NCBI GenBank assembly: GCA_902510815.1
Contig: CABXDI010000013.1
Span: 1-37,097, forward strand
Direction: 5' to 3'
Length of the DNA stretch: 37,097 nt
DNA from: an uncultured Verrucomicrobiota bacterium
Lineage (GTDB): Bacteria; Verrucomicrobiota; Verrucomicrobiia; Verrucomicrobiales; DEV007
This document shows positions 9,001 through 37,097 of the stretch, piece after piece (the stretch's first letter is position 1; each line of letters begins with the position of its first letter). The notes under the pieces were generated by a model. That model saw nothing but the letters and a program-made list of their open reading frames with translations. It was not told where the DNA came from and searched no databases. Both the position numbers and the translations under genes were made by a program.

Positions 9001-12000
9001 CCATTAGGCGTACTATTAGCAGTTCCAGCAACTGTGATAGGCAAAAACTGGAATGGCTTGCCACCGTGTACATTAAACTCGATTGTGTAAGACCCGGCAA
9101 CTTCCACAGGAACAGTTCCAAAAAGTCTAGCCGGCCTTGAAGTTCCATCATAATTAATCCATTCGGGCTTGGAATCAGCAAATCGCAGGTTGCCGTATTG
9201 ATCACTCATGTATGTGTCATCATCGTCTAGGTCTTCTAAGACAATCGGAATATCAAAATTTTCGCTAGGTGAAAAGTTGTAAGCCGAACTCAGATTTAAT
9301 ACTTTTAAATTACCGTCAAAGCTTACCTCAATAGAAAAGGGGCCAAATACGGCGGACTGATTGCCGTTGGAAGCTGCGATTGTAATGCCACTGTAAGTTC
9401 CTCCATCATTAGTAAGTGGGGTCCCAAAAATTCGACCGGTTGAGGTATCCAATCTCAGCCAGTCAGGGAGATTCGATGCGGAAAATGAGACGATGCCTTC
9501 AACCTGCGAACCTTTTAGTAAGGAGGGCTTAAAATCATATGGTCTCATTGCCATCAATCTAGTTCGAGGACTTCCGACTAAACGAAGAGAATTATCATTG
9601 GGAACGACAATAATCGAAAATAAAACCGAACGAATATGAACGTGCGGAGTTTCAAATTTAATGAACAGATCCTTGTATTCGCCAATATCATCATTAGATG
9701 GAGTCAGCGTAATCCCTAGGGAATCCTTCTGTAACCATGACGGATTGAACTCATTGTTCGGTTGTTTCAAAGAGCGTACCGAAAAATTAAAATCACCTTC
9801 AATTGAACCTTGTATATTAAAAGAATGGGTTTGCGTTTGTCCGGCAGTTACCTGCAGATCAACTAAATTAGTAATGGTGAAACCAGGTTTATTCGGTTCC
9901 CGAAAGAAAAGCTGGAAAGGGTCTGTAAAGACCTCGGTTGTGCCGTCAAAAACGCTAATCTTTATTGGGGAACTCTCAGCTTCATGGCCTATATCGGTTT
10001 GCCCATAAAGTTCCCCAGTCTTGGAATTAAAGGAGAGACCTTCAATTTCGTTTGGTCGGCTGGGATCGGCAAAATGAAGACTGAAGCTAAGATGATCCTG
10101 CGGAGTATCAGGATCTGTAACCACCATAGGGATACTGAAAGCTGTTCCGTTCGAAATTGTTTGCGAAATTGGACCACTTACTATTACCGGGGGTTGATTC
10201 GCTGTGTTTCCCTGCGGGAAATAAACAGAGAGCAGATAATCTATCTGATCACTCATCCCCTTGGCACGGGCTTCATCATATACCTGCTCTAATCCTTTAT
10301 AGCGGAAGACCTGAAATCCATTTCTATCATCACTCCAATAACCCTTGGTCCAATCTCCAGTTTGTAAGCCTGCAAAATAACCTCTAAAGTCGCTATTGTT
10401 TGCGGGGATAATACTCTGATAATGTTCTAGCCTAGCTTTGAAATCTATGGCTTTTGGAAGGTGATCCAGTTCAATAGCCAATTTTGCTGAGGGAATGATT
10501 CCCCAAAAATGAAAGATAGGTGCTAAATTCTTATTGTTCGCAAATGAAGCTTTGCGGATAAAGTCGTCGTCCGCTATTCCGTAATTAATTACGCGATTGC
10601 CTTGGGCTCCCACATTCATAAATACAGCATGAGTATTACCAACAGACTCCCAACCGTATAGATTAGCTAATTCCACAAACTTGCCATGACCGCGTGACTG
10701 ATAACGAATTTCGTTCCAGACATAGTTCAATTCGGTTGTCTCCTCATTCCAGGCCTGGTCCCATTGCTCAAAATCGTAGCTCATACGTTTGTTTGCAGAG
10801 AAATTAGGCGAAATCATCCAATCAATAGCTGCCTGATCAAGACTCAAGCCCTGATCAATTGATTGCGCCATGGCGTCAGTAGTAAGATCAAGCCCGTAGG
10901 TGAGATTGTAGGCGGCTACTGCAGGAAGGTTAACATTCGATTCCTGTTCTTGATAACCCAAAGTCGGATAGTTGTGAGCATGACTCATTTCATGCAAAAC
11001 AATAAACTCAGCAGATATTCCACCTGAATTTGAATTAGGGCGAGGGTCGAGAAAGTTCTCCCATGAATCAAGATCATTTGCGGGAACTAGTGGCAATGGA
11101 TTTGCTGCAGGCGCCGCAGTGCCTCCCGCCACATTCTGCCGATCCGCCATAAAAAAATAAGGACGAGCACGCTCTAGAGAGCGACCGCCAACAACGGAAA
11201 AGGCATCAAGTATTGAGTCCCACTCAGCAAGGATTTCTTGAGGAGACAACGTTCCCTTATCAAAAAGTGCTCTAGGAGCTGATAATTGGACCTTGTCCGA
11301 TTCAAACTCTACCCAAGGAACGTTGGCCGTCGCTTTTGCGGCTTCCCATTCCTGTTGCGTTGTTTCAGATCCAGTCCGTGTGGAGAAATATGGCGTCTTT
11401 ACCGCACCTACGACCGCAACTGATAGGTCAGCCAGATTTGACCCGTCAGGTACTCGAACAAGAATCGAACCACCCATCGGATTCATCACCTGAACGGTTG
11501 TGGTGTTTATACCGTAGGAAAGGCTGATGCGATTCAGACGGTTATAAGGGCGCACGTAATATGTGTTCCAAAAGTGAACCCCAACCAATACTCGAAAATT
11601 TTTACCGAGGACCTCCTCTGGAAAAGTTAACGAAACAATTTCACCTGGCGCCGAATAATAGCCAGTCATTCTATAGGCATGCTCACTACCATTTTCTTGA
11701 ACCCCAGGAGTTTTATTATATGTCCCATTAATTGTAATGTTGGCTGGGTTTGAATTTGTTGTCCGAAGAGCATCTACCTTGGGGACTCCAGGCCAAACTG
11801 CTGCTTCTTCAAACACAAAACCCTCAAGTGACTGTAAATCCCCACCAACATACAAATCATCAAGCATCCATTGCTTCACGAAAAAGACAGTCTGTGCCAC
11901 TAAATCAAGATCGCTCAACGGCACTCTGTCCTCGCTTTTAAAAAGCGCATCGTACTTGTCTTCATATGTTTTTAGGAAAATCTTGAGTTCAGAAAGCGCA

Positions 12001-12938: not shown

Positions 12939-15900
12939 CTATTCCACCAAAATCCTGAAAAACTGCGGTTTCTCACCTGATATCGGTTTTGCTGTGAAGC
13001 GGATCTCGCCACCACTGCCTCGGAAAAGTTCAACTGCTTTCCATCTTTGGAGATCACCTGAAGCCTGTACGGTGTAACTTCGGCCGACTGTGGAGTTAAA
13101 ACTAAACCCGAAAGGCTTGCTAGTGACGTTGAAAACATGTGGTAGGTTGCCAGCAATGGATACGGCATCCAGCTCCAACAGTTCCGGTTTGCCATAGAGG
13201 CTTCCGGGTTCTAGGATCATAGTCTCGTTCACGAGGTACTCGTTATTGTCATCCTGGTTCCACACCCGATAGCTGACCATTTCGGCGCCATTGAGGTTTA
13301 CATTTAAGGTCACGTAACTCATTCCTTCGTTCAAAACCACATCTTGAAATCCTCTGAGTTCATTTCCAACAAACGCCGCAACAACACTGCCTTCGGTCAC
13401 GGGCTTGCCTCCGATGGATACTTTCGCCTGGACTGTTGATCCTAGGTTTGGATAGACGATCGCTTTCCCCCAAGCCGGGCCTACTTTCTCTTCCGGTGAA
13501 TTATTTGTCCTAGGATTAAAAGCTCCAAAGAGTCGAAGTCGAGGTTCTATCACAGTTCCAACTTTCCACGTCCCATCTGCATCCACATTTAACCAGTAAC
13601 CCGAACCAGGTGTCATCGTCGACAACGTGTTTAGGAAAGAGGGGTTATTTGGGTCGTACGAACTTTCTAGGTCTTTGATTTGTACAACCGTATCTCCAAG
13701 ACTTGTCAACTCATTAGCAACAGCCTCTCCGTTCAACCTTGGGTAGCCAACCAAGTTCCAGCCGCTATTAACATTGATCGATGCTCCCAACGGCACTTGC
13801 CCCTGCACATCCAAGCTGACGTCTTCGCTGACCTTTAGCCAGTACCCATCCGTCACATTTAGGTTTAATAATGTATTTAAGAATGTAGGATTACCCGGGT
13901 CGAACGACTGTGTTAGGTTTTTAACTTGTAAGAGCTTTTCCTGTATTGGAGCAAATACAGTGGCCGTGGTCATGTCACTGGCCTCTACATAGAAAGATAC
14001 CAAATTCCAACCCTCTTTTAGGTTCAAGGTCTGTGTCTCTCCAACACTAGAACCCACAACGGTAACCGTTCTTACAGCACTTCCAGTATTTCCTGAAGCA
14101 TCTGTAGCGGTGTAGGTAATTGTATAATTACCTAACGTATTAACATCTACCGTTCCTGAAGAAGTAACTGATTCTCCGCCGTCTGATGAAGCTCCTGCAT
14201 CCGTCCAAATGGACCCCTTTTCTACTGTATCCGTGCCACTAGTAATAGTGATCACTGGTGCAGTTGTATCCACTAAAGGCAGCCCTCCGTAAGTATCGCC
14301 AAAACCCTGTGAGGTTGCGGAAACGGTAATTTTTGCATTGTTATTAACATTGGTAAAAGTATCATTACCAATTTCTGGAGCGTTACCCGAAAAGATGATA
14401 CTAGTTAGGTTTGAGCAATTAAAGAACGCACCATCTCCGATGCTTGTGATGCTATCAGGAATGGTAATGTTTGTTAGGCTGGTACACTTATAAAAAACCC
14501 AATCTCCGATGCTTGTAACGCTATCAGGAATGGTGATACTTGTCAGGCTGGTGCACTCAAAGAAAGTATCTTTCTTTATAATTGTAACCCCATCAGGAAT
14601 CGAGATGCTTGTTAGCGAGGTGCTATTGTAAAAGGCTCTTTCACTAATATCTGTGACACTGCTAGGAATAGAAATGCTAGTTAAGGAGCTTTCTTTAAAT
14701 GCCTCAAAACCAATTTTTGTAACCGGCTTACCCTCTATAGTTGCAGGAATTACCAATTCACCTGTTGCTGAAGTGTCACAGTTAGTAATTGTAACTGAGT
14801 CTCCGTTAACAGTGTATTGAAGGAAGTTAGGGACTTCATTGTCGCCAGGGTCTTGTCCGTTATTACCCTGAGAAGCTGCGTTGATTGGGCTTTGGCCCGC
14901 AGCGAGTTCCGCAATTTGGCTGCTATCAAGGACCTCATTCCATACAGCAACATCGTCCACCATTCCGAGGTAAGTTGCGCCACCACCGTCACGTGCACCG
15001 ATTACGAGAGATCCGCTGCCATTAGGAGCAGGCTTGTCGCCGGACCAGTCAACCACACCGTTGAGGTAAATTGTTCCAACGTCTGTGGCTCCATTATAAA
15101 CCCACGCTGCGTGTATCCATTCGCCATTTAATGTGCTGAGATCAGTAACACCGTCTGTGTCAGCTCCCCAGTGAGCCTGGTGTAAAAATCCACCATTACG
15201 AATACCATTGTGGATACCTTCTTCAGTTTGTCCGAAGAGGAATCTTTCTCCACTGAGATCACTAGGTTTGATCCATGCGGACATAGTATAACTGTTCTGA
15301 CCGTCAACATCATTGATGATTCCGGAAAGATCTGCTCCTGTGACGTTTAGGAATCCACCTTGGAAGTCTGCTCCTGTTGTCGGGGTTGAACCATTAGGTG
15401 CACCTGATCCCCCGATTGTGATTTCATTTGGATTAATTATACTGGCGTTTAGTCCATTATTTCCTTTATCGGCAATATTATTACCTGAATGATCCTCAAA
15501 GTCGAAGAAAGCCGTAACAGCTGGTAGTTGTGGCTTATCAGTAAATAAGGCGGTGATCGTCTTATTACTATTCATTGTTATAGTGATAGGATTATCAGAT
15601 CCTGAGGCATCTCCATCCCAGCCTGTGAAAGTGTAACCGGCAGCTGGGGTTGCAGTAATTGTGGTTGTGGCACCTTCCAAGTGACTCGCCGAGTAATCTA
15701 CTGTACCGTTCGACGCATTGACAGTCAAAGTGACAGTAGGTATCGCAGAAAATATCGCGGTAATTGTCTTGTCACTGTTCATTGTTACGGTGAGAGGGTT
15801 GTCAGATCCTGAGGCATCTCCTGACCAACCACTGAATAAGTAACCGTCTTGAGGAATTGCTGTGACTGTTGTAGTTGCGCCTTGACCGTGGCTTGCTATG

Positions 15901-18900
15901 AAATTAGCAGCCCCGTTAGCGGCATTAACAGTCAGAGTGACGATGTTATTCTGGTCGCCTGTATCAAAAGACTGTTGAGTGGTTAGATAATCATTTGAAT
16001 TTTCGGTAATTTCGTTCCCAGAGGAAACGAATTGCCAGGCTGAGTTGAAACTCATGACCTGAATAGCTTTTGTAGTTGTTTTTTTCCAGAGGAGCTTGTT
16101 GGTGCCGTTAATATTCGCAACCGAGGTGGCGCTTCTTCCTGAAGTTTCCAATTGGATTGACTCACCATTGATACTTAGCTTTTGAGCATTATTGGCATTA
16201 GAACCTGCGTATAATCTTTGCTGATTATCGTAATAAAGGCTTGTACTACCAATTGTTTCGACAGCTGTAAGTCCAGAATCATCATCGTTTCCACCTTGCC
16301 CTGAGGCTGCATCTGAGGCAGAGAATGCGCTGTTAGTTGGGTCAATGCGTGTCATCTTAGTTCTGCTTCCATCCAGATAGGCAACGTTACTACCAAGTTC
16401 TTTGAGGTCTTCCCAGGTCACGTTTGCGTGGGTGTTACCCCATGGGTTTCTGAGGAAGAATCTTCCTGCTTGGCTTTCAGTATTGCCGTCGACGACGCCA
16501 TAACTTTCATAAGTATAGGTGTGTTTTCTTTTGACTCCCTTACTGGAAGCGAGAGGACATGGTGCAGATGTGCTAAAGACGAGTGGAAGTTTTGCCTCAA
16601 TTTGAGCGACTAACCATGCTTTACCGAATTCACCATTATCATCAGTCTTTTCACTGATATATTTATAACTCGCTTCCTGGCCAGTGATGTGAGATAGGGC
16701 CATTACTGCGGAGCCTCCTGCGATTCCGAAGTGATTTCCTATTCCGTATCGGTTGGTTCCATCTTGTCCAATGTTGTCAGATTCGTTGAGTTGAACGTAT
16801 GCTTTCTCTGCCATCATTGCCCAAGTTTCACCGTCAACGGTACTAACGTTTCTTAAGTCTGTGGATCTGTATCCTGGGACATACTTATCGACAGTGACCC
16901 ACCTTTCAGCGCCATAGTTGTCATACATACGTACACCATAAGTGTTGTCTCCATTATCAATGAACATATCGCCTGGGTAGACTGAAGGATGGCGACCATC
17001 AATCGAAGCAATAGTCGATTCAGCGACGGCACTTAACGATGATAACAAATAACAGTCCCCTAGGCTTCCTTGTCTGATGTCTTTTGCTCGGGCTTCGTTG
17101 AAGAATAGAGGTAGGTCTAAGTAGACATATAGCTTTGGTGTTGCCGGACTATCCAAGCCTCTGAACCATTTATTGATAAGTCTTTGAACTCTCTGTTCTG
17201 AACTGCCTGGATAAAGATTCCCAATGTTTTCTCTGGCTGTGTTTCCAAGATTCGATTCTTTTCTACCAGTGTAGTACTGGTTAGCTGGATCGCCATTTGC
17301 AATATTGTCCAGAATTGTAACAAGGTAGTTATTGAGTCCAAGTTCCTTATAGTTTGCTACCAGAATTCTGAGGTCAGTCAATTCAGTTTGTGTTATGCCG
17401 TCCACTTTGACTTTGTCCAAGATGGCAATTAATTCTGCACGGTCTAATAATCCATCTGAGTTTCCAGAAATAACTGCGTCCGCAACTTCACTTGAAATAA
17501 CGCTAAGTTCTGATAGCCAGCTGGCGGAAGGTAAAGTTTTTGGGGCTCGTTTCTGAATGAGTTTCAGGTCATACCCATATGGCACGCCGTTAGGTCTAAA
17601 GTTTGTACCTGTTACTTGTCCGGTCGTCGCTCCAACGGCGATGTAGTAAGTACCGGATGAAGTTGCTTTGTAGTCCAGATCCGCATCTGTCATCGTATGA
17701 AGTAGTTCACCACTTGTGTCGTGTAGAAAGAGCCTGGATTTGACTCCTCTATCGACATCACCATTAACGAGTGCTCCAGATATTCTAAACCTGTATGTGG
17801 CGCCTTCTGTTAATGATGCACTGTAGAGATCTCTGAAGGTTGCATATTCTATCTGGCCTGAAGTGTCCTGTGCACCTATGATGATGTTAGTTGGTGTAGC
17901 CTTATCAAAGGTGTCATCATCGTTAAGTACTCCATCTATATTAGTGTCCCATGATAATGCTCTCTCTGTTGCTTCGCCTAAATCATAGGATTTGATTGTA
18001 AAAGTACCAATAGGGACTCCAGAAATTCTTCCTGAATCATTGAGCTGATAACCGTCGGACCATAATCCGCCAGCATCAAGATAGTAGACTCCAGTGCTTG
18101 GAGCATCATAGTTCAACACTAACTTTTCTCCAGTTGATCTTGCTTTATCCTTTTTCGGTCGAGGGAATACAGGAACTCCATTTTTATCTCTAATAAACAT
18201 AGATGGAGCCTGCATTGAGTCTCCGTATTGCTCAAAGCGATAGGCTCGAGTTTGTTGGAGATTCATTTTGTACCACTTCCTGTTGTTCTCCAACTTGATT
18301 TCGTCTTGAATGAAATTTCCAACCGTGTGCTCAGTAGCATTATTCAGAAATTCAGAAGCTTGGCCCGAAGGCACTTCAACCTCAGATCCAACAAACTTGA
18401 TAGGATCATTTGAATCAAGTGGTTCAGGTGGAGTCCAAGTATTCGTCCATTTAACTCTGTATGAACCAGCATCAATTCCAGCGACATCGACGTAGTAGAC
18501 ACCCGTTTCGTTGGCGGTGTAAGTAATTTTTGGATTCCACCACCCGTTGATGTGGTCGTTGTAAAATAATTGCTTGCCGTGACTGTCTCTTATCCTTAAT
18601 TCAGGATCCTTGAGTGAGTTTCCTATTAAGTTAAATTCATATACTGAGCCCTCATCTAATTTAACTTTGAACCAATCTCTATCATTTTTTCTTTCAAGGG
18701 TGGCTTGGTTTTCACTGAACCCTTTTTCATCATCAGCAATGTTACCGGTTAATGACCCATTAAGCGTTGTATGACCATTTAAAGCTTTCTGCGACAAGGT
18801 AAAGGTGCCGCCTCCAGCAAAGTTTACAACACTTCCAACATCTAGCATGGCATTACTGTTTGTTGCTCCTGTAGAGTCGTTGGTTTGAAAAACCAATGCA

Positions 18901-21900
18901 TCAATGTTGATTGACGTAGCTCCGTTTGTGGCTTCACCGTCCGACTTGATACTTAATAATGTTTGGGTGGTGTCCATTGATGACAAAACATCATCAGTAA
19001 TGTGAACCAGGCTTAAGTCGTAAATTATGTTGCCAGTTCCACCATCTTCAATGCCCCATGACTTTGTGTTCCATGCGTCTATAAAGAAGACGCCTGTTCT
19101 GTTCGCTGTAAATGTCATCTGGGCATGTCCGTCCTTAATTGTTTCAATCCAAACGCTAGCGTCGTGATTTCCATGAATATACTTTTGGTTGTCTCTAAAA
19201 TAGACACCGGACTCTGTGAATAGTTTTATGCTAGGCCTGTGGAAGTGGTGAGTCATGATATCAATCTTGTAGGTATTACCCGCCACTAAATTAGTTTTAA
19301 ACCAATCTCCATCACCACCGTGAGTACCCCAAAGTAGGTCCTCATTAGCACCATCCTCTACATGTTTTTCCCATGTGCCTGATGCGGTACCACCAACCTC
19401 TATGACTCCGCTCGTGGACATGTTTTCTTTTTGGTCATCCAGAACATGGGTGACAGTGAAGTCAACATTTCCAGTAATGTTTGATGAAGCCTCAAGATAA
19501 AAATCTCGAGGTTCGTTATCGTTTTCAAAGCGGTTTTGAGGTACCGAATAAACATAAGTTGAGCTTTTTGATTCATCATCATAACCGCCTCCTGGTTTTC
19601 CCCATTTTCTGTCATATTTCCACTTCCAGAGATCACCCTTTGGTTTACCATATTCGTCGTAAACTCTTATGAGAGGTGATTGACGGCTATAGGAAAGGTT
19701 AGCATCTCCTTCGAGTTCAATTTTATAACTCTCTCCTGGGATCATTTGAACTGAATACCAGTCTTTGTCCCCGCCATAATCCATGACTGAAGTTATTTTT
19801 TCTCCGAATGTGTAAGGTGTGGCAGTTTCTTTTGTTTCACCAATAGTGTCATTAGCAGCAAGGCTATCTAATTCAGCCATTGAGATGTTGTAACCTCCCT
19901 TGGCTCCCCAATGAGTTCCAATTTCAACGAAGTATGGTGCTGTGTATTTTGGAGTCCAGTCGATTACTATTTCCTGCTCGTTCTCACTAACACCGTGGTA
20001 ATGCTGAGAGATGATGCCTGTAGGTAATTCAACCATTCCAAATCTATATCTTCCAGTAATGAAAGTGTATCCGGACTCGGTAGCTGAAATGTCTCCAGAA
20101 AGTTTTCCTGAAAGTGTGGTCGCTTCTTTTTGAGCTTCTTCAGATACTTCAAATGTTGAACCATTGGTAAAAATGATAGTTGTTCCTTTATCTACTATAG
20201 TCGAGAGAGGGTTTATTTGTATCGTAGAGTCTCCATCTGAAGCGTCTGCTGTCGCCATATATACACTGTAATAAGCACCTTCATCATCAGCAATGTTGCC
20301 GCTCAGTGTACCTGTTAGTGTTGTGTGGGTGACTAAGGCTTCTTGTGATAAAGTGAACGTGGATCCACTTTCAAAGTTGATGATCGTTCCGACTCTTAAA
20401 TAATTGCCCATAGGATCCACATTAATAGTGGTGGCTCCATCTGTTTTTGCGCCGTCTGCAATGATGCTCGCTTGTGGAGTGGTAGTTTCTGCTTCTACTT
20501 GGAAATAGAAAGTTCCAGTTTCTGTTGCTGTGAATAGCATTTCAGCATCTTTAAACTTAGTTCCTTGATGTGATGAACTTACGCCAGCGTTGTTGTTGGC
20601 ATTCTTGATAAATTGACCATCTGGTCCATAAATAGAAAACTTTGGATCGGGTAGTGCCCTATTGAGATTACTTGGACGTCCAACGACATTAATTTGATAG
20701 ACTCGTCCCTCCTTAAGATCAGCTGCGATCCAATCCTTATCTCCATAAGTGATGATAGCTCCAATGCTATTTACTCCATCCCCATCTAATGCTGGGAACT
20801 TATAGGATTTCGCAGGATTATCACCGATTTCACGAGTGTAAGCATTCTCCTGACTGCCGATACCAGAAAGGGATCGTTGCAGCCAATAATTTGATGGTAC
20901 TTGTGGTCCGTTAAGTTTGAGCCAGCTACCTAAAGGGGCGCTGTAATCCGAGTTATTCACATCAGTTAAGTCGATCCTGAATTGATATCTTTTGCCTGCT
21001 TCGACATCGACTCTAATCCAATCAGTGTCTCCTTTGGCGTCAAGGTTTCCAGAAGTTGGTGAGGAGGTAGTGAGGATTCCAAGAGTATTTCTATTGTCTG
21101 AAAAATCATCATTGAAAAAATTTGAGTAGATTGTATACCCCATTAAATCATTAAAATCGTTTGCACTTGAGGCTCTTAAATAATAATAGCCGTCGGCTAC
21201 AGGGGTGATATTTTCCAAGCCTAAAGACCCATTTCCTACATCACCTTCAACGAGAACACCGTCACTATCGAAAAGCACTAACCTTGCATAGTCGTCTCCG
21301 AGTGAATGTTCTGAGGTTCCAAAAATATTAAAGGAATAATTATTTTGAGCTAACATATCAATCCCAAAGAAATCGAAATCCCTATTGTCTTTTGCTCCTG
21401 TTCCTTCGCCCGGGCCTGCGTAAAAAGTTCCACTGACCCTCTTTCCAGCTTGTAGGTATCCAGCATCTGTAAAATCATAGGATGCGGGTATCCATGGACT
21501 TCTACCATCTGATCTCGTGCGTCCCGGCCAGCCATCATCATCTGGGTAGATAACGTCTCCACCAAAATCATCTGACAATTCTTTAGCACTTAGATTAAAG
21601 CTTCCCGTAGCAACGTTAGCCTGATTTTCATCAATGTCCTCGTTGCTATATGCCTCAAGGAAGAAATCACCTGTATAAGGTGCTATAAAAACAATTGTAG
21701 ATTCGTCTGTAGACCCAGCACCTGAATAATTAGTAATGCTGGATTCTTCAAGAATTTCACCAGTATCATCTCTGAGAGTGAGAGAGGGTTTAGGTGCATC
21801 AATTTTTGATAATACCCATCTATAGATTTTACCCTTCTCAAGGCTGTACTTGTACCAGTCTTTATCACCATCAACTTCGATTTTCCCACTAAATTTGTCG

Positions 21901-24362
21901 GAGATGCTTTTTGTAACAGTTGTATCAATACCGCTGGGTACATCATTTGATGAAATATCACTAAAAGCGACTGGCACTCCTCTTTCAGTTAACCAAGGTC
22001 CCCAATTTGCTACAGGTCCGCCACCGCCAGTCACAACGTACTGACCAGTTCCTATACCTTCATAGTTAGGCCAGTAGGTTGGCGAGCCTGATGAAATTAC
22101 TAGGTAATAATAGCCAGCCTCTGAAGGTTTGTATTTTAATGTTCCATTTAATCCCTTACCGTTGTCATTTTCGTCTCCCATTGCCCAGTTTTGACCGTCC
22201 TTCTGCAATCCTATTTGTGTGTCGGGGAATTCACCGCCAACCTCAAACTCATACCACCTCTCTACGTTTAAATAAATTTTGATGTAGTCGACATCACCAT
22301 CAAAATCTAACTTACCAGTAAAGTTTTTGAACTTATAGTTTTCGTCAATAATCCCGTAATCAACAGTTGACGCATCCACTTGTCCTTCGGTTGGAGCATC
22401 GCCGCCAGAGCTTTGAGGTTTCACTGTATCCCCGTTAGGTTCAACATCTATAAGAGTGCCTGCATCTGTAATAAAAGTGTCAGCTGGGACATGCTCAGCA
22501 ATAATGTTAAAAGTACCAAATAGAAAATCGAGGTTATAAGCAGTGCCGGTTCCTCTTCCAAAGAAATCTAACAAGTAGTATCCAGTTGCTTTTGGTGTAA
22601 AAAATATTTCAGCGTCATCACCCATAAAGTCTCCATTATCGTTTCCTGCGAGCGAGTCATATAAAAGGCCGCCGGCTTTTGTTCTGTTCATTCTATTATT
22701 GGTGAGATTAATGCCGCTTATCTCTATAATTTCTTGAGCTGAAGCATCAAAAAACACATTGACCGTATTGCCATCTGAATCCTGTGATATAGGAATTAAA
22801 TTTCCATCACCATTTAATTTTTTTGCGTTATTAATGGCGGTGGCTATTTGGGCGGTGGTGCTAGTACCATCGTTTGCAACGTGAATATTAAGTTTGGTAT
22901 TATCTATGTCATAATTTGCGTAGGGAGTTTGTCCATCATTAATGTCGGGGAGGATCTCAAATGACATTTCCCAATCCAAACCAATTTCAGATGAAATTCC
23001 GTTCCCTGTGGGAGTACCGTCATCACTTACCTTGAATGGAATGCTGTCACCATTGATTTTCAGTAAGTACTCAACAGCAGTGTTCTCGGTTCCTACTTTT
23101 GTGCGTGACCTGTTCAAATTTGTGTTAGTAGGTACTAGGGTAGGAACATTAGATTCGACACCAATTTTAAAAGTTGAATTGTCATCTTGAGCGGGTTCTG
23201 CATCATTTGCGCTGTAGAGCCAAGATCCGGTGTGCTTATTAATGGTGACCGTTCCGAGGTCGGGTTGTTTAATTACTGAATACCTTCTTTTATCAATGTC
23301 TAAAGGCCCTAGAATCTGCATTTCGGAATCAGATAATGTGATGCCTTCCATTACAAATCTGTAGCGCTGATCCTTTTCCAACTTAAAGATTTGTTGATTT
23401 GTGGCACCGTTTTGTGTCCATCCATTGAAGGGTGAAAAGTATGGTCCACTTTCAGTGATTTCTTCTCTGAGAATTAACTTACCTTGGCTAGGCACTTCAT
23501 AGAAACTGATGGTGTCGCCGTAGCCGTCGTCCGCGGTCACAGGGTTAGGATTTTTAGAGCCGGCTATCGTAATGCTTATGTTTCGCTCGGTTCCATCAAA
23601 AGATTTAATAGTAAATTCATCCTTCACGCTCTCGGAGCCAACCGCCATTAGGTGATGGTTGCTCAGAGTAGATTCGTAATTCCAAGCACCTTCTGCAGTG
23701 AGAGTAAATTTTCCGTGGGTACCCTGTGTTTCTTGGGCTATTAATTTTGCCTCATTGGTATCTTTGTCCTTCACCCTGATGAAGCCACTTCCTTTCTCGA
23801 TTTGAGATGTTTTAGATGCTTCAATGATGTAGTCTAATTTGGACATTACTGCCGCGTCATTAGTACCTTTTATTGAAACGAGTATTTGAAATACGAATCC
23901 ATTTTCAGCAGTGAAAGAAAATAACTCCTCCCTTATTGCGCCGGCAGGCAAATCATCATGTGTTGCGGCATAATCTATTCCCGAAACCTTGTTGGCTTTG
24001 GAATTATATTTATAGGTTCCATCAGTCAATACCTCGAGGTCACCATAGAGGGATTGATTTCCAGATGAGTACGATGCCGTTACCTGTTTCTTTGTGTAGG
24101 GTAGAACAAGATTTTCATAAGCTCCTTTATTATAGGAGCCTTCTTTTTTTAAAGCGTTTCCATTTGCATTAAGGTCAGCCGTCTCATCCAGATTTATAAC
24201 CATTCCACTGGGAACATCAGGCTGTGTGTCAAGAGCATCTGCAATGCCGTCACCGTCAGTATCTTGTCCATGAAGGTGACCAGGTAAAATTACCAATAAT
24301 AATAATGTCAGTAATTGGGTCCAAAAATTTGGACGTAAATTTGTATAGGTGTTGTTTATCAT
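12939..24362 (-). CDS. Giant secreted calpain-like (C2) cysteine protease, 3807 aa
   Basis: Signal peptide at about 1-32 (QLLTLLLLVILPGHLHG), then a TSP3-like DTDGDGIADALD, VCBS-like domains (about 58-278), and about ten PPC-like domains (about 670-2270) recognisable by 'GDKDWY...L..G..Y.' segments. The calpain-type core is at about 2411-2672: QGSLGDCYLLSSL with C2437, H2614 in KHTYTYESYG, and N2639 in LRNPWG. The Cys-His and His-Asn spacings (177 and 25) are close to those of classical calpains, so the triad looks intact. Then: a Trp-rich-like domain (2697-2802), two InlB-B-like repeats (2808-2944), LamG (2950-3160), BspA-type LRRs (3182-3358), DUF5011-like Ig (3365-3440), two 'GWNLV' domains (3443-3606), an ELRG module (3618-3732) and a C-terminal SYTVQASGDLQRW domain common in Verrucomicrobia. 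Calpains are usually intracellular; this one should be exported. No RTX nonapeptides or sortase motif were seen, so the export and anchoring route is unknown. Confidence 0.93.
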   Translation of the reverse strand: MINNTYTNLRPNFWTQLLTLLLLVILPGHLHGQDTDGDGIADALDTQPDVPSGMVINLDETADLNANGNALKKEGSYNKGAYENLVLPYTKKQVTASYSSGNQSLYGDLEVLTDGTYKYNSKANKVSGIDYAATHDDLPAGAIREELFSFTAENGFVFQILVSIKGTNDAAVMSKLDYIIEASKTSQIEKGSGFIRVKDKDTNEAKLIAQETQGTHGKFTLTAEGAWNYESTLSNHHLMAVGSESVKDEFTIKSFDGTERNISITIAGSKNPNPVTADDGYGDTISFYEVPSQGKLILREEITESGPYFSPFNGWTQNGATNQQIFKLEKDQRYRFVMEGITLSDSEMQILGPLDIDKRRYSVIKQPDLGTVTINKHTGSWLYSANDAEPAQDDNSTFKIGVESNVPTLVPTNTNLNRSRTKVGTENTAVEYLLKINGDSIPFKVSDDGTPTGNGISSEIGLDWEMSFEILPDINDGQTPYANYDIDNTKLNIHVANDGTSTTAQIATAINNAKKLNGDGNLIPISQDSDGNTVNVFFDASAQEIIEISGINLTNNRMNRTKAGGLLYDSLAGNDNGDFMGDDAEIFFTPKATGYYLLDFFGRGTGTAYNLDFLFGTFNIIAEHVPADTFITDAGTLIDVEPNGDTVKPQSSGGDAPTEGQVDASTVDYGIIDENYKFKNFTGKLDFDGDVDYIKIYLNVERWYEFEVGGEFPDTQIGLQKDGQNWAMGDENDNGKGLNGTLKYKPSEAGYYYLVISSGSPTYWPNYEGIGTGQYVVTGGGGPVANWGPWLTERGVPVAFSDISSNDVPSGIDTTVTKSISDKFSGKIEVDGDKDWYKYSLEKGKIYRWVLSKIDAPKPSLTLRDDTGEILEESSITNYSGAGSTDESTIVFIAPYTGDFFLEAYSNEDIDENQANVATGSFNLSAKELSDDFGGDVIYPDDDGWPGRTRSDGRSPWIPASYDFTDAGYLQAGKRVSGTFYAGPGEGTGAKDNRDFDFFGIDMLAQNNYSFNIFGTSEHSLGDDYARLVLFDSDGVLVEGDVGNGSLGLENITPVADGYYYLRASSANDFNDLMGYTIYSNFFNDDFSDNRNTLGILTTSSPTSGNLDAKGDTDWIRVDVEAGKRYQFRIDLTDVNNSDYSAPLGSWLKLNGPQVPSNYWLQRSLSGIGSQENAYTREIGDNPAKSYKFPALDGDGVNSIGAIITYGDKDWIAADLKEGRVYQINVVGRPSNLNRALPDPKFSIYGPDGQFIKNANNNAGVSSSHQGTKFKDAEMLFTATETGTFYFQVEAETTTPQASIIADGAKTDGATTINVDPMGNYLRVGTIINFESGSTFTLSQEALVTHTTLTGTLSGNIADDEGAYYSVYMATADASDGDSTIQINPLSTIVDKGTTIIFTNGSTFEVSEEAQKEATTLSGKLSGDISATESGYTFITGRYRFGMVELPTGIISQHYHGVSENEQEIVIDWTPKYTAPYFVEIGTHWGAKGGYNISMAELDSLAANDTIGETKETATPYTFGEKITSVMDYGGDKDWYSVQMIPGESYKIELEGDANLSYSRQSPLIRVYDEYGKPKGDLWKWKYDRKWGKPGGGYDDESKSSTYVYSVPQNRFENDNEPRDFYLEASSNITGNVDFTVTHVLDDQKENMSTSGVIEVGGTASGTWEKHVEDGANEDLLWGTHGGDGDWFKTNLVAGNTYKIDIMTHHFHRPSIKLFTESGVYFRDNQKYIHGNHDASVWIETIKDGHAQMTFTANRTGVFFIDAWNTKSWGIEDGGTGNIIYDLSLVHITDDVLSSMDTTQTLLSIKSDGEATNGATSINIDALVFQTNDSTGATNSNAMLDVGSVVNFAGGGTFTLSQKALNGHTTLNGSLTGNIADDEKGFSENQATLERKNDRDWFKVKLDEGSVYEFNLIGNSLKDPELRIRDSHGKQLFYNDHINGWWNPKITYTANETGVYYVDVAGIDAGSYRVKWTNTWTPPEPLDSNDPIKFVGSEVEVPSGQASEFLNNATEHTVGNFIQDEIKLENNRKWYKMNLQQTRAYRFEQYGDSMQAPSMFIRDKNGVPVFPRPKKDKARSTGEKLVLNYDAPSTGVYYLDAGGLWSDGYQLNDSGRISGVPIGTFTIKSYDLGEATERALSWDTNIDGVLNDDDTFDKATPTNIIIGAQDTSGQIEYATFRDLYSASLTEGATYRFRISGALVNGDVDRGVKSRLFLHDTSGELLHTMTDADLDYKATSSGTYYIAVGATTGQVTGTNFRPNGVPYGYDLKLIQKRAPKTLPSASWLSELSVISSEVADAVISGNSDGLLDRAELIAILDKVKVDGITQTELTDLRILVANYKELGLNNYLVTILDNIANGDPANQYYTGRKESNLGNTARENIGNLYPGSSEQRVQRLINKWFRGLDSPATPKLYVYLDLPLFFNEARAKDIRQGSLGDCYLLSSLSAVAESTIASIDGRHPSVYPGDMFIDNGDNTYGVRMYDNYGAERWVTVDKYVPGYRSTDLRNVSTVDGETWAMMAEKAYVQLNESDNIGQDGTNRYGIGNHFGIAGGSAVMALSHITGQEASYKYISEKTDDNGEFGKAWLVAQIEAKLPLVFSTSAPCPLASSKGVKRKHTYTYESYGVVDGNTESQAGRFFLRNPWGNTHANVTWEDLKELGSNVAYLDGSRTKMTRIDPTNSAFSASDAASGQGGNDDDSGLTAVETIGSTSLYYDNQQRLYAGSNANNAQKLSINGESIQLETSGRSATSVANINGTNKLLWKKTTTKAIQVMSFNSAWQFVSSGNEITENSNDYLTTQQSFDTGDQNNIVTLTVNAANGAANFIASHGQGATTTVTAIPQDGYLFSGWSGDASGSDNPLTVTMNSDKTITAIFSAIPTVTLTVNASNGTVDYSASHLEGATTTITATPAAGYTFTGWDGDASGSDNPITITMNSNKTITALFTDKPQLPAVTAFFDFEDHSGNNIADKGNNGLNASIINPNEITIGGSGAPNGSTPTTGADFQGGFLNVTGADLSGIINDVDGQNSYTMSAWIKPSDLSGERFLFGQTEEGIHNGIRNGGFLHQAHWGADTDGVTDLSTLNGEWIHAAWVYNGATDVGTIYLNGVVDWSGDKPAPNGSGSLVIGARDGGGATYLGMVDDVAVWNEVLDSSQIAELAAGQSPINAASQGNNGQDPGDNEVPNFLQYTVNGDSVTITNCDTSATGELVIPATIEGKPVTKIGFEAFKESSLTSISIPSSVTDISERAFYNSTSLTSISIPDGVTIIKKDTFFECTSLTSITIPDSVTSIGDWVFYKCTSLTNITIPDSITSIGDGAFFNCSNLTSIIFSGNAPEIGNDTFTNVNNNAKITVSATSQGFGDTYGGLPLVDTTAPVITITSGTDTVEKGSIWTDAGASSDGGESVTSSGTVDVNTLGNYTITYTATDASGNTGSAVRTVTVVGSSVGETQTLNLKEGWNLVSFYVEASDMTTATVFAPIQEKLLQVKNLTQSFDPGNPTFLNTLLNLNVTDGYWLKVSEDVSLDVQGQVPLGASINVNSGWNLVGYPRLNGEAVANELTSLGDTVVQIKDLESSYDPNNPSFLNTLSTMTPGSGYWLNVDADGTWKVGTVIEPRLRLFGAFNPRTNNSPEEKVGPAWGKAIVYPNLGSTVQAKVSIGGKPVTEGSVVAAFVGNELRGFQDVVLNEGMSYVTLNVNLNGAEMVSYRVWNQDDNNEYLVNETMILEPGSLYGKPELLELDAVSIAGNLPHVFNVTSKPFGFSFNSTVGRSYTVQASGDLQRWKAVELFRGSGGEIRFTAKPISGEKPQFFRILVE
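14395..14700 (-). repeat. 69-bp repeats encoding BspA-type (LRR_5) leucine-rich repeats
   Basis: Repeats with a 69-bp (23-residue) period; for instance tctccgatgcttgt recurs at 14434 and 14503. They encode TSLTSITIPDSVTSIG-type units, typical of BspA-like surface LRRs that bind host or matrix proteins. Adjacent copies are similar at DNA level, suggesting recent expansion. Confidence 0.88.
16350..17130 (-). other. Calpain-like (peptidase C2) catalytic core inside the giant CDS
   Basis: It encodes residues about 2411-2672 of the 3807-aa protein. QGSLGDCYLL matches the calpain QGxxGDCW(F/Y)L motif around the nucleophile C2437. GETWAMMAEKAYVQLN matches the calpain 'LWPALLEKAYAKL' helix. HTYTYESYGV and LRNPWG supply H2614 and N2639. 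No EF-hand-rich calpain tail is present; a helical segment (LLDRAELIAILDKVKVDG) lies just before the core. Confidence 0.88.
18710..18960 (-). repeat. Third copy of the 'SLTGNIADDE' repeat
   Basis: Residues about 1802-1885 contain GATSINID, VGSVVNFAGGGTFTLSQKAL and NGSLTGNIADDEKG. This is a distant copy of the module at 20040-20470, with a Ser/Asn-rich insertion after its first strand, again between two PPC-like domains. Confidence 0.7.
20040..20470 (-). repeat. Two tandem ~65-aa 'GTLSGNIADDEG' repeats in the calpain-like giant
   Basis: Residues about 1299-1440 contain two copies of a module: 'DG.TTINVD....VGTIINF..GSTFTLSQEAL..HTTL', then 'TGTLSGNIADDEG'. The second is more diverged (GTTIIFTNGSTFEVSEEAQ, SGKLSGDISATESG). 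They interrupt the run of PPC-like domains. I do not recognise the family; the style resembles repeats in phage and surface structural proteins. Confidence 0.7.
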
Positions 24363-32866: not shown

Positions 32867-33002
32867 TTGAAAACTTTTACTACGAAATGAGCATTTAAAG
32901 CAAGCTAAATACCTTGATAGCCAGTGGCTTATTAATAGGGATTTCTATTTTCAGAACTAGCATTTAGTGTTATTCAGAGTATATATTTTAAGTTCGATTC
33001 AA

Positions 33003-34844
33003 ATGGCATTTGCACACAAATTAAGTCTTGGGGTTGTTAATTGTTTAAGTGGTGAATTTAAGCAGGGTATCAGTTCGCCCTTTGTGATTGGCTCGGGGTC
33101 AGAATCAGATATGGTTTTGTATGATGATTTAGTGCTGGATCAGCATTGTCTTATAGAAAAGACAAAAAAAGGAATTCAAATTAGATCCACTCAGCCAGAT
33201 CACCCTGATGGTAATATCATTCTTGATGGTAGTCCCACCACTCTGGCTCAGCTCAAAGCTAGGACTGAGCACTCTATACAAATTGGAAAAAGTTTTCTAG
33301 TTATCGTTACAACGATGTCTTCTAAAAAAGAAAACATTCAGATGTGGGGAAAAAATATTAAGAACGGAGGATGGATAATTAATAAGTCCAATAAGGCGGC
33401 AGCCACCAGACCGTTACAAATAAACGAAGTCTTTGATGCACGTGACACAATGGGGTTGGATCCTGATTCAACACCCGTATTTAAGGGCTCTAGTGAGGTC
33501 GGTTTTTATCTTTGGCAACTCATGTCCATTGAACCAGAACGTGAACAAAGTCATAACGCTGAACTGGCTGAATCTGAAAATGAGCCGGTCGCCGATAGAG
33601 TTGAAGATCATGAAGTAGAAAACGCATCAATGTCCAGATATGTTGATTCTGATAATGGGGAGTTTACTTGCCCAACTTGCTGGTTGAAATTTGATCGAGG
33701 TGATGTGATGCATGTGGCTGTTCATGATTCTTTATTTGGGGATCCGTTACTTGGAGAAGAACAAATGAAGAGGTTTCATGCTGATAGGTTTAATGATAAG
33801 GGTCAGGCTCTTGATGAATACGGAATACCCTGTACGGAAATCGCATGTCCTCATTGTAGGAGAACTTTGCCTCCTGGTTTTTTCGATGAGCCACACAAAA
33901 TATTTTCTATTGTCGGGGCGCCTCAGTCAGGAAAGTCCTATTACCTCACTGTTCTAATTAAGCTCTTGCAGACGACTCTTTTTAAAGAATTTGGTGTGGT
34001 CTTTCGCGATGCTGATCCTGCTGGGAATGCTCCTATAAATGAGATGAAATCTCATTTATTTAGTGCTCAAAATTCTGCTCAGGCCTTTTTGACGAAGACT
34101 CAGTTAGAAGGTTCGATGTATGAAAGGTTGCCTAGATATGATAGGATGGTTACTCTGCCAAAGCCGTTTATTTTTTCTTTGTCTGGCGCTGACTCTGATG
34201 ATGAAAATTGTTCATTGGTTTTTTACGATAATGCCGGAGAGCATTTCCAACCGGGACAGGATTCAACGAATTCACCAGGGGCTCAACACATCGCTTCATC
34301 AGATACTATCTTTTTTCTCTTCGACCCTACAATTAATCCTGACTTCAGAAGAAGTATTAGTGATTCTGAGGATCCTCAATTTAAATCACAAGTTTCCGAT
34401 CAGCAGGATATTATATTGGCCGAAACTGAGGTTCGAATTAAAAAACTCCTTGGCTTAGGGCGGCGGGAAAAAGTTGATACTCCATTGGCGATAATTGTAG
34501 GAAAGTGTGACTCTTGGATAGACAAAATAGGGGTAGAAAATTTAAAAGATCCCGTCAGTGATGGAACTCTTGATATAGGAGCTGTCGAATCGAATTCCCA
34601 ATTAGTAAGAGCTATGATGGAAGAGCATTGCCCATACGTCGTTGCAAATGCTGAAAGGATATCATCAGACGTATGCTATTTTGCAGCGAGTGCATTTGGG
34701 CATACCCCAGTAACCTTCGAAGATGAAAAAGGGGTTTCCCGTATCGGACCGGATCCTCAGAAGATAAATCCAATGTATGTTGAAATACCAACTCTCTGGG
34801 CGCTTTCAAGGGTTAGGCCCGGGTTAGTTCCATTTTTCCAATAA
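33003..34844 (+). CDS. FHA-like / zinc-ribbon / P-loop GTPase protein of a GAP1-type system
   Basis: 613 aa from ATG 33003; a GTG at 32967 would add 12 residues, but the ATG sits just before the FHA-like strand. Residues about 5-100 look like an FHA domain (FVIGSGSESDMVLYDDLVLDQHCLIE). A GYF-like segment follows (WGKNIKNGGWIINK...). Cysteine pairs CPTC (223-226) and CPHC (282-285) make a split zinc ribbon around a 55-residue insert. The GTPase part has Walker A GAPQSGKS (305-312), a switch-II-like FYDNAGE (D409-E413) and GKCD (500-503) in the NKxD position. Only one P-loop is visible. The family looks like the double-GTPase/TRAFAC-clade GTPases that pair with GAP1 proteins; the next gene, 28 bp on, is such a partner. 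A phosphothreonine-responsive switch is plausible but inferred. Confidence 0.8.
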   Translation: MAFAHKLSLGVVNCLSGEFKQGISSPFVIGSGSESDMVLYDDLVLDQHCLIEKTKKGIQIRSTQPDHPDGNIILDGSPTTLAQLKARTEHSIQIGKSFLVIVTTMSSKKENIQMWGKNIKNGGWIINKSNKAAATRPLQINEVFDARDTMGLDPDSTPVFKGSSEVGFYLWQLMSIEPEREQSHNAELAESENEPVADRVEDHEVENASMSRYVDSDNGEFTCPTCWLKFDRGDVMHVAVHDSLFGDPLLGEEQMKRFHADRFNDKGQALDEYGIPCTEIACPHCRRTLPPGFFDEPHKIFSIVGAPQSGKSYYLTVLIKLLQTTLFKEFGVVFRDADPAGNAPINEMKSHLFSAQNSAQAFLTKTQLEGSMYERLPRYDRMVTLPKPFIFSLSGADSDDENCSLVFYDNAGEHFQPGQDSTNSPGAQHIASSDTIFFLFDPTINPDFRRSISDSEDPQFKSQVSDQQDIILAETEVRIKKLLGLGRREKVDTPLAIIVGKCDSWIDKIGVENLKDPVSDGTLDIGAVESNSQLVRAMMEEHCPYVVANAERISSDVCYFAASAFGHTPVTFEDEKGVSRIGPDPQKINPMYVEIPTLWALSRVRPGLVPFFQ

Positions 34845-34872
34845 TTTAACTTAAGAACAAAGGCCGTTTTAA

Positions 34873-37097
34873 ATGGCTTACCAACTCATATATACTAGCG
34901 TTCCTCGGGGATTAGTTCCCGGGCGTAGCGGATATACTGTAGCTGCGAGGCATCGTCAGATTCGAGACAGGCTAGTTTCTGAGATAGAAAGAGTCAGCCG
35001 CTATTCATATTCCAAGGGAGGAGAATCTCCTGTAGTATATGCGCATCGCATTTTTGATATTTCAGGAAGTAAATTTCATGTCCTAACGAGAATTGTTGAT
35101 GCTGGGTCTGATTACACTGGAAGAACGAATTATCTTGCTCATCACCTCATTTGTGATTCTAAAGAATTATCAAGTAGTGGAACTCATCCGGCAGAAATTT
35201 TATTGAATTTTGACTGGCTTGATTCATTTGAGGGTGAACCTAAATATCTAGAAGATTCTGATATTGTTGATCTTTCCAGTTATAAAGGAAATATAAAATT
35301 GCCAGCAGCTAATTGGAAAATTCTGCGTGGAGAAGCCGCAGACGCAGCTTTGCTCGTTGATACAAAATCAAAGGCTAAGAATTCAATTCTTGTTTTTGAG
35401 GAAAGTGATAAGTCCATAGAAAAAAGATTGATACTTTTAGTTGGCGAGTCGGCTAAATTATTAAGCTCACCTAATGAGATAACGTTCACTACTTTTTTTC
35501 AAGAGGGAGATACGATGTCTGATTTTCAATGGATCGGATGCGAATCGGGAAGTTCAATGGTTCAGAAACCAACGAATAGGGATATTGTTAACTTGAATAA
35601 TATTGATCAAAAATCTCCAGACACAGAGCTTGCTCAGCTTGCAGTTAAGGGAGTCCTAGCGCCTAAGCCCACGGTGAACTCTCGTCCCAAAGAACAGTCT
35701 GGCTCCGCCGAATTCGCTTCTCAGAATCTTCGATCTGAACAGAAGGAGGCAAGTGCTAAAATTAATACTGGTTCTCTTCCTGCTCGAACTAATGTGCCTG
35801 CTCCCTCTTTTATTAAAACTGGTATTGGTGCTTCGCCGGTTTCAAGTATTGCTAGATCAGGTATAGATAATGCAGATGAGGTTCCATTTTATATAAAGAA
35901 TTTAAAACTTATCGTTATTTCATCGGTTGTTGGAGTAGGTATTATTTCTGGCTTGTTTTTTTATCTCACGAGTTTTCAACCTAAACAGCGAATGCGAATT
36001 AATATTGAAAGGTTTGCAAACGAGCAAAAATACTTAGAGGCGAATGATTATCTAGATAGGGTTCTTAAGGAGCGTCCAAATTGGAGAGAAAGAATTGAGG
36101 ATACTAGAATAGAAAAGGTTTTTAAACCAATGCGGGAAATAACAGAACTTAAAATCAACCAGTTTATAGGTTCTGATACTGAAAATAAAAAGGTAAGATA
36201 TGATATTGCTAGAAATCAATTAGATGAGTTTCAGGTGTTTACTAATTATTTTAGTAGTGGATCACCTGAAGCTGCAAAAATATATAAGCTAATAGAAGAC
36301 TATAATAATGCAGAGAAGCGTTATATGGATTCTTTGCAATCTGAAACTGCTAAGAATAATACGGAAAAAGAAATAATACCTAAGCCCAATGAAATTTCTC
36401 CACGGGATGATTCTGAATTAGCGTCTAATACAAACAAAAATGAACCAGAGAAAATTAAGTACTCTCCAGTATCATTATATATTTTTCTAAATACAGGAAA
36501 CTTTGAGCAGTTAGTATTGCCTGAATCTTTGAGGCGACTATCTGAAGGTGACCAGGGTCAGTTAATGGTTAATTTAAAAGCCTATGGGTTATCGAATAAT
36601 GATTTCCCTCTGTCGAGGATTATCAAAAGCGAAAAGATAAAATATAAATTTCCTGAAACAGCAGAAGAGGAAAACAATGAGATGGTTCCAATCTCAGGAT
36701 CAATAAATCTTGAACTAAAGTTTCAGGGAGCTGGCTCTCTTTATTTGCTAAAACATCAATTTAAAGAATTAGATATTAAATCTAATCTATGGGGAGTTGA
36801 GAATAGTAATCTTATATCATTTTCTGAGGGAAGAAGTTCACTTGATGTATTATTATGGAATGGTGCTCCATTTGAACCATTAGATACGCATTTTAAATAT
36901 ACTGAGGGAAGAATCAGCTTAGATGAATCCTTGAATAGGGTGATTAATGCCCTAGGTAAGGCTGAGCCAGAGCAGTATTCCCCAAATAAGGTAATTCTAA
37001 AATATACTCCTAGGGGGACAGGTGCTGACAATGCTGAACCATTGACATCAGTAATTGATTTAGGGGTAGGGCGTAGAGAGGCGATGTTTATTAATGT
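34873..37097 (+). CDS. Membrane-anchored GAP1-N2-like protein, 3' end outside window
   Basis: At least 741 codons, still open at the right edge. The start ATG has a weak AAAGG (34859-34863) upstream. Residues 1 to about 125 match the GTPase-associated protein 1 N-terminal domain type 2: YTSVPRGLVPGRSGYT (7-22), PVVYAHRIFDI, and DAGSDYTGRTNYLAHHL (76-92). A Ser/Pro-rich linker (about 235-330) leads to one transmembrane helix (about 346-366, LIVISSVVGVGIISGLFFYLT). After it come helical, TPR-like residues (EQKYLEANDYLDRVLKERP), an Asn/Glu/Lys-rich part and beta-rich sequence. Canonical GAP1 has M and C domains and no such helix as far as I know, so this looks like a different architecture. It is co-directional with the GTPase gene 28 bp upstream, so the two likely work together. 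Confidence 0.8.
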   Translation, partial: MAYQLIYTSVPRGLVPGRSGYTVAARHRQIRDRLVSEIERVSRYSYSKGGESPVVYAHRIFDISGSKFHVLTRIVDAGSDYTGRTNYLAHHLICDSKELSSSGTHPAEILLNFDWLDSFEGEPKYLEDSDIVDLSSYKGNIKLPAANWKILRGEAADAALLVDTKSKAKNSILVFEESDKSIEKRLILLVGESAKLLSSPNEITFTTFFQEGDTMSDFQWIGCESGSSMVQKPTNRDIVNLNNIDQKSPDTELAQLAVKGVLAPKPTVNSRPKEQSGSAEFASQNLRSEQKEASAKINTGSLPARTNVPAPSFIKTGIGASPVSSIARSGIDNADEVPFYIKNLKLIVISSVVGVGIISGLFFYLTSFQPKQRMRINIERFANEQKYLEANDYLDRVLKERPNWRERIEDTRIEKVFKPMREITELKINQFIGSDTENKKVRYDIARNQLDEFQVFTNYFSSGSPEAAKIYKLIEDYNNAEKRYMDSLQSETAKNNTEKEIIPKPNEISPRDDSELASNTNKNEPEKIKYSPVSLYIFLNTGNFEQLVLPESLRRLSEGDQGQLMVNLKAYGLSNNDFPLSRIIKSEKIKYKFPETAEEENNEMVPISGSINLELKFQGAGSLYLLKHQFKELDIKSNLWGVENSNLISFSEGRSSLDVLLWNGAPFEPLDTHFKYTEGRISLDESLNRVINALGKAEPEQYSPNKVILKYTPRGTGADNAEPLTSVIDLGVGRREAMFIN

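Follow-up and report, generated by a model that had tools for sequence, protein, structure and literature searches.

A DO-GTPase/GAP1-N2 pair from an uncultured Verrucomicrobiota bacterium as the candidate core of a GTPase-switched trans-envelope complex

At the right end of a contig from an uncultured Verrucomicrobiota bacterium (GTDB lineage Verrucomicrobiales; DEV007) lie two plus-strand genes, encoding a GTPase with FHA-like and zinc-ribbon domains (gene 1) and then a GAP1-N2 protein with one predicted transmembrane (TM) helix (gene 2). The window analysed here is the whole contig of 37,097 nucleotides (C13; CABXDI010000013.1, assembly GCA_902510815.1), and the source genome assembly amounts to 2.2 Mb in 138 contigs at 54% completeness. 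Because the window is a complete contig, its own assembly holds no sequence to the right of the edge, and the missing part of the locus was read in relatives. Only 28 bases separate the GTPase stop codon from the GAP1 start. The pair and its features are:

33003..34844, +: gene 1, FHA-like / split zinc-ribbon / DO-GTPase2 protein of 613 amino acids (Pfam and orthologues)
33060..33332, +: FHA-fold domain, phosphothreonine pocket lost (profile; IGSGSESD...LDQH against IGRxxxxD...SxxH)
33669..33680, +: first zinc-binding pair, CPTC (C223, C226), invariant in 70 homologues
33846..33857, +: second zinc-binding pair, CPHC (C282, C285), invariant in 70 homologues
33915..33938, +: P-loop (G1), GAPQSGKS, with the core G, G, K and S invariant
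34227..34241, +: Walker B/G3 motif, DNAGE, with D, A, G and E 100% conserved
34500..34511, +: G4 motif, GKCD, with K and D 100% conserved
34873..37097, +: gene 2, GAP1-N2 protein with one TM helix, 741 of about 1016 amino acids, open at the contig end
34873..35244, +: GAP1-N2 domain (Pfam)
35263..35622, +: second ordered cytosolic segment, residues 131-250, with no Pfam match (model and identity)
35893..35949, +: predicted TM helix, residues 341-359 (hydropathy)
35950..37095, +: fast-evolving C-terminal region, probably periplasmic (identity)

By sequence, the pair belongs to the DO-GTPase/GAP1-N2 kind, as judged from its GTPase, Walker B glutamate, zinc ribbon and GAP1-N2 domain. Hidden Markov model searches matched gene 1 to Pfam DO-GTPase2 (PF19993; 31.8 bits against a cut-off of 27, E = 1.5e-7) and gene 2 to GAP1-N2 (PF20013; 83.2 bits against a cut-off of 24, E = 2.2e-23), bearing out the family assignments in a preliminary description of the locus. 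The DO-GTPase match recurs in 20 of 22 homologues, and the core GTPase motif residues are intact in 70 of 70; according to PMC7159879, the conserved glutamate of the Walker B motif is a trait of the DO-GTPase family. We place the start of gene 1 at the ATG of MAFAHK, which is common to relatives; the mechanically derived open reading frame begins at the GTG at 32967. Orthologues of gene 1 are 82-92% identical within the genus and 72% identical in the next genus. The TssM/IcmF family was considered as possible kin of the GTPase and rejected, as the P-loop alone aligns, over 16 columns, with a TssM profile that is shallow (four sequences).

The same description had placed FHA-like and split zinc-ribbon domains on the GTPase, and both hold. 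The CPHC pair lies 55 residues past the CPTC pair, giving one split zinc ribbon of four cysteines that is invariant throughout the homologues. At the N terminus of gene 1 itself, Pfam matches are below threshold (Yop-YscD_cpl, 3.4e-5; FHA, 0.023), but Pfam FHA (PF00498) matches 10 of 22 aligned GTPases, at best with 1.7e-17, and the family profile retrieves the solved mycobacterial FHA domains of FhaB/TB39.8 (6.6e-6) and GarA (9.8e-6). Judged by these profiles, the FHA fold is genuine. GYF_2 domains were also matched inside 5 of the 22 FHA-DO-GTPases (alignment A7), and the GYF partner encountered below is thus sometimes part of the GTPase itself.

Gene 2 was likewise correctly described as a GAP1-N2 protein with a TM helix and without the GAP1-M and GAP1-C domains. 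A full-length orthologue has 1016 amino acids and is 80% identical. Neither GAP1-M nor GAP1-C matched the window protein (E <= 10) or 20 relatives (0.01); in the window's own genome GAP1-M was not found, with its positive control detected, and GAP1-C was not found, with its positive control likewise undetected. A match to EF-P on the window protein (0.0056) recurred in 1 of the 20 relatives and was treated as chance. A structural model of a genus orthologue places order mainly in the N-terminal ~265 residues, and residues 131-250, within this part, share 49-52% identity when distant members of the genus are compared. When the window is set against the sister genus, identity falls from 80% in the GTPase domain and 65-70% in GAP1-N2 to 20-23% in GAP1's C-terminal part; change is thus fastest in the probable periplasmic part and in the linker preceding it. 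Foldseek hits of the model were non-significant (FLCN-FNIP2, 0.058; DENND10, 0.21; TagF, 0.23), and a TagF profile search found no match anywhere, its controls likewise giving none; a TagF/longin/DENN-like fold for GAP1-N2 may serve as a lead only. In two relatives (L038, 11820-16576; L041, 11814-16546), tandem GAP1-like genes of ~920 and 661 amino acids lie between the GTPase and a third gene.

This third gene completes the operon. Full-length relatives come from the genus (L014-L019), from a sister genus in the family (L020, L021) and from a different family within the order (L022, L023). In the genus and its sister genus the gene order is GTPase, GAP1-N2-TM protein (~1020-1070 amino acids) and third TM protein (~1010 amino acids), with the start of the third gene usually overlapping the GAP1 stop. 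The third protein has a predicted TM helix at 369-387, and its model (mean predicted local distance difference test score, pLDDT, of 82.4) suggests that the cytosolic half is helical and is followed by a TM stretch of low confidence, a bundle of helices and an alpha/beta end; across 21 members, neither FNIII nor any other Pfam domain matched consistently. In two motor-bearing distant relatives (L118, 10569-12170; L127, 10778-12388), a gene for 533-536 amino acids without a Pfam match lies between GAP1 and the third gene. The preliminary description had anticipated effector genes just beyond the right edge. The contig ends there, and the genus relatives instead show the third TM gene, followed by what we take from its sequence to be an M32 carboxypeptidase-like gene and by genes that are constant in the genus and the sister genus, with no effector genes past the operon. 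The neighbours of the pair that were supposed to vary are constant.

Co-occurrence ties the third protein to the pair. In a phylum sample of 388 genomes, GAP1-N2 was found in 72, the third protein in 54 and both in 50; because 50 of the 54 genomes with the third protein also carry GAP1-N2 (Fisher p = 1.3e-40), the third protein is a core member and not a chance neighbour. Within the genus, 7 of 10 genomes carry a GAP1 orthologue, among them every one of the other five with a completeness of 80% or more; outside it, orthologues occur in 2 of 26 genomes from the rest of the family and in 2 of 21 from the order's other families. When genome contigs were scanned with the GTPase alignment, by a method that relies on motifs of that alignment and detects close relatives only, 57 loci were returned, each with a title in Verrucomicrobia/Opitutia or one of their sub-groups.

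What the core might work on is suggested by its company in relatives. In 33 surveyed loci from Verrucomicrobiales, Opitutales and Chthoniobacteraceae-type relatives, it lies with a gene of the MotA/TolQ/ExbB family (PF01618, 1.9e-10), which is mostly followed by two genes for B-like proteins with one TM helix each (B1 and B2) and usually preceded by a gene for a GYF protein, in some Prosthecobacter fused to what reads as a trypsin-like domain. Several Opitutales loci have stored sequence that stops in or before B1, leaving B2 unseen there. B1 and B2 both carry an invariant aspartate at the start of the TM segment, the place corresponding to that of the proton-carrying aspartate of TolR and MotB, and by position it could act in the same way. 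Across 29 loci, MotA distances track those of the GTPase (r 0.94) and the third protein (r 0.96), values reached in 0 of 2000 permutations and expected from joint inheritance. Two further loci (L175, 7819-11061; L176, 5535-9476) carry a stand-alone gene of the MotA type, with a zinc-finger-like motif at its N terminus, together with two one-TM B-like genes; this trio is a separate branch of the A+B+B set, unlinked to the GTPase. In two distant relatives (L121, 13258-16023; L128, 13368-15224), the core of GTPase, GAP1-N and third protein is followed by PilM (7.5e-11 and 6e-16), which links the core again to envelope machines. The GAP1 of both consists of the short N part only, and L121 also has a weak T2SSM/PilO-like gene and an AAA ATPase.

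We favour, with somewhat more confidence than doubt, a reading in which the locus encodes a GTPase-switched trans-envelope complex, of which the window's genus retains the switch core only, the motor having gone. Gene 1 would be a soluble cytosolic GTPase switch. Gene 2 would be its bitopic inner-membrane partner, with the cytosolic GAP1-N2 domain engaging the GTPase and the C-terminal part in the periplasm, and gene 3 a second bitopic protein, its cytosolic half helical and its periplasmic half partly helical and partly alpha/beta. The GTP- or GDP-bound state would then control the assembly or activity of an envelope-spanning complex of the products of genes 2 and 3, which in many Verrucomicrobiota could include a proton-driven motor of the MotA/TolQ type (one A and two B-like genes) and the GYF protein. 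In the window's genus, the core presumably serves as a sensor or scaffold switch, or works on another envelope machine. Gene content, domains, conservation, co-inheritance, the loss of the FHA pocket and the absence of motor and effectors from the genus are observations; membrane topology, direct contact between GTPase and GAP1, control of the motor and overall function are what we infer. The role at the membrane proposed in the preliminary description is likely. Because relatives encode the switch with a MotA/TolQ-type motor set, control of an envelope machine is suggested rather than an antiviral toxin. A broader proposal, which we hold more tentatively and with less confidence than doubt, is that Verrucomicrobiota possess a widespread, undescribed GTPase-gated proton-motor machine, a counterpart of the Myxococcus gliding motor built from unrelated switch parts and reduced to the switch, by loss of the motor, in the window's family; its parts would be the FHA-DO-GTPase, the GAP1-N2 protein, the third TM protein, the GYF protein, the MotA-type channel and two B-like axle proteins.

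Several observations weigh against a trans-envelope motor complex of this kind. Eighteen loci with sufficient sequence have no motor, including every testable locus of the window's family, and the A and B1 profiles gave no match at the locus or elsewhere in the seven genus genomes searched, so the motor link is indirect for the window's organism, whose genus lacks the motor. On the GTPase tree, a firmly supported clade of 11 holds the window and its neighbour group is mostly motor-bearing, but the motor state changes at least five times, with the cut window coded as motor-less, and the deep nodes are weakly supported; motor loss in the window's family is likely, and an ancestral motor is not proven. 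The B-like proteins have no detectable sequence homology to TolR, ExbD or MotB, as neither B1 nor B2 matched PF02472 (ExbD/TolR) or a solved B subunit; a profile of the A subunit found no solved chain either. A convincing fold relative was found neither for the third protein nor for GAP1, and for gene 3, B1 and B2 the best matches to solved structures or folds were to generic helical repeats and coiled coils. Finally, the topology is drawn from hydropathy alone, and the charge pattern around the GAP1 TM helix is not decisive.

Other explanations assign the same genes different roles. DO-GTPase/GAP1-N2 loci have been known solely as predicted conflict systems whose effectors vary, and the preliminary description extended that role to the present pair. 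The fast-evolving periplasmic part of GAP1 would sense an invader, the GTPase would set the threshold, and depolarising or disabling the cell would fall to the membrane proteins or, in relatives, to the Zorya-like proton channel. Such a system has the precedent of its family (PMC7159879) and would fit a GAP1 C-terminal part that evolves much faster than the remainder, the patchy distribution (72 of 388 genomes across the phylum, 2 of 26 in the family once the genus is set aside) and the weak resemblance of MotA to ZorA (2.3e-6). This last similarity, however, is mere general channel-family likeness, and a conflict system is hard to square with the lack of variable effectors, the constant neighbours in the genus, the same MotA-B1-B2 set across orders and the presence of GAP1 in each of the five other genus genomes with a completeness of 80% or more. 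A catalogued defence system was rejected when PADLOC gave no match for the pair or for GTPase and GAP1 orthologues (E <= 1), as was mobile carriage, with no homologue in plasmid and phage collections. A conflict role is thus possible but unproven, has less support than the preliminary description assumed, and in our estimate is unlikely.

A further element of that description, phosphorylation-gated signalling, would have a kinase-modified partner bound by the FHA domain and the GTPase thereby controlled at the membrane. The FHA domain is genuine in the family, and nine distant homologues retain IGR...SxxH. In FHA domains, the arginine and serine of the pocket hold the phosphate of phosphothreonine. 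Both are replaced in the window, where the pocket reads IGSGSESDMVLYDDLVLDQH, and the full G-R...S-x-x-H pocket is kept by 0 of 61 members of the window's clade; this loss opposes phosphorylation gating here, as does the fact that no kinase was seen adjoining the locus, in the window or in genus relatives. We consider this mechanism very improbable, although a pocket-less FHA domain may still bind a protein partner. The core could also have come from a motor-bearing ancestor and now serve a motor-independent housekeeping function in the envelope, with no moving part left; it might, for example, position or stabilise an assembly for peptidoglycan, pili or secretion. Core genes that stay intact and conserved in a genus where seven searched genomes lack the motor speak for this explanation, and PilM follows the core in the two distant relatives described above, but the patchy presence in the wider family speaks against a general essential role and no partner assembly was identified in the genus. 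This alternative, too, seems to us doubtful as compared with a switch that belongs to a trans-envelope complex.

Elsewhere in the window, the genes to the left of the pair are a divergent CBM9-like gene, a gene for a small protein and a Gfo/Idh/MocA gene, all conserved within the genus. Further left, two very large minus-strand genes occupy much of the contig. One (3-12887) encodes a giant protein of more than 4295 amino acids, cut by the contig end, with an M60/enhancin-like peptidase domain (PF13402, 1.8e-10), an M60-like N-terminal domain, pentapeptide repeats and many repeats with D-x-N-x-D-G motifs. The other (12939-24362) encodes a surface-type protein of 3807 amino acids with a calpain-family protease domain (PF00648, 1e-13), LRR_5, Laminin_G_3 and InlB B-repeats.

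The closest known systems are the DO-GTPase/GAP1-N2 systems described by Kaur, Burroughs, Iyer and Aravind in 2020, which, in PMC7159879, include examples from Verrucomicrobia, TM-bearing GAP1 proteins and GYF partners, have one or two N-terminal zinc ribbons (usually two) and contain a second DO-GTPase in 38% of cases. The present locus shares with them the DO-GTPase2 domain, an N-terminal zinc ribbon, the Walker B glutamate, a GAP1-N2 gene immediately downstream and the TM helix in GAP1, and its relatives have the GYF-trypsin or GYF-TM partners that were reported from planctomycetes. As TM-bearing GAP1-N2 proteins were already described in that work, the TM helix alone is not new. The differences lie in the FHA domain on the GTPase, the lack of a GAP1-M or GAP1-C match and of any FNIII protein found, a constant third TM protein of ~1000 amino acids, the lack of variable effectors, and MotA with two B-like genes in many relatives. 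The main text of PMC7159879 has no mention of MotA, TolQ, ExbB or an FHA domain on the GTPase, and the later literature searched refers to DO-GTPase/GAP1-N2 systems only in passing. In the present case that core belongs to a fixed set of genes, accompanied in many relatives by a proton channel and two candidate axle proteins, which raises the question of whether GAP1-N2 systems in general could be regulators of envelope complexes.

Two other systems share single parts with the locus. Zorya (ZorAB) has an A subunit of the MotA family, to which the weak ZorA match points, but its other components have no match here and the core pair has none in PADLOC. The cytoplasmic domain of YscD from type III secretion systems is the best-scoring FHA-fold family for the N terminus of gene 1 (3.4e-5, below the cut-off), whereas here the domain is fused to a GTPase and no type III secretion genes were seen adjoining.

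In overall parts list, a close counterpart is the MglA/Agl-Glt gliding and Nfs sporulation machinery of Myxococcus, which likewise combines a GTPase switch with one A protein of the MotA/TolQ type and two different B proteins. MglA acts on the motor protein AglR and on GltJ (PMC12288465), AglQ and AglS are both of the TolR type, and an FHA domain is present in GltG (PMC3169522), so that an FHA-bearing membrane protein and envelope-spanning partners are found there too. MglA, by contrast, is a small Ras-like protein with a roadblock GAP, as opposed to DO-GTPase2 and GAP1-N2; the B-like proteins here have no ExbD/TolR match, and the window's genus has no motor. We therefore regard the likeness as functional, an analogy in the list of parts and not homology, since GTPase, GAP and B proteins belong to other families. 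If the GTPase gates the channel, the Verrucomicrobiota machine would provide a second case in which a GTPase switches an ion-driven envelope machine, one without sequence relationship to MglA/Agl. The form without a motor in the window's family amounts to a natural deletion that separates the switch from the motor.

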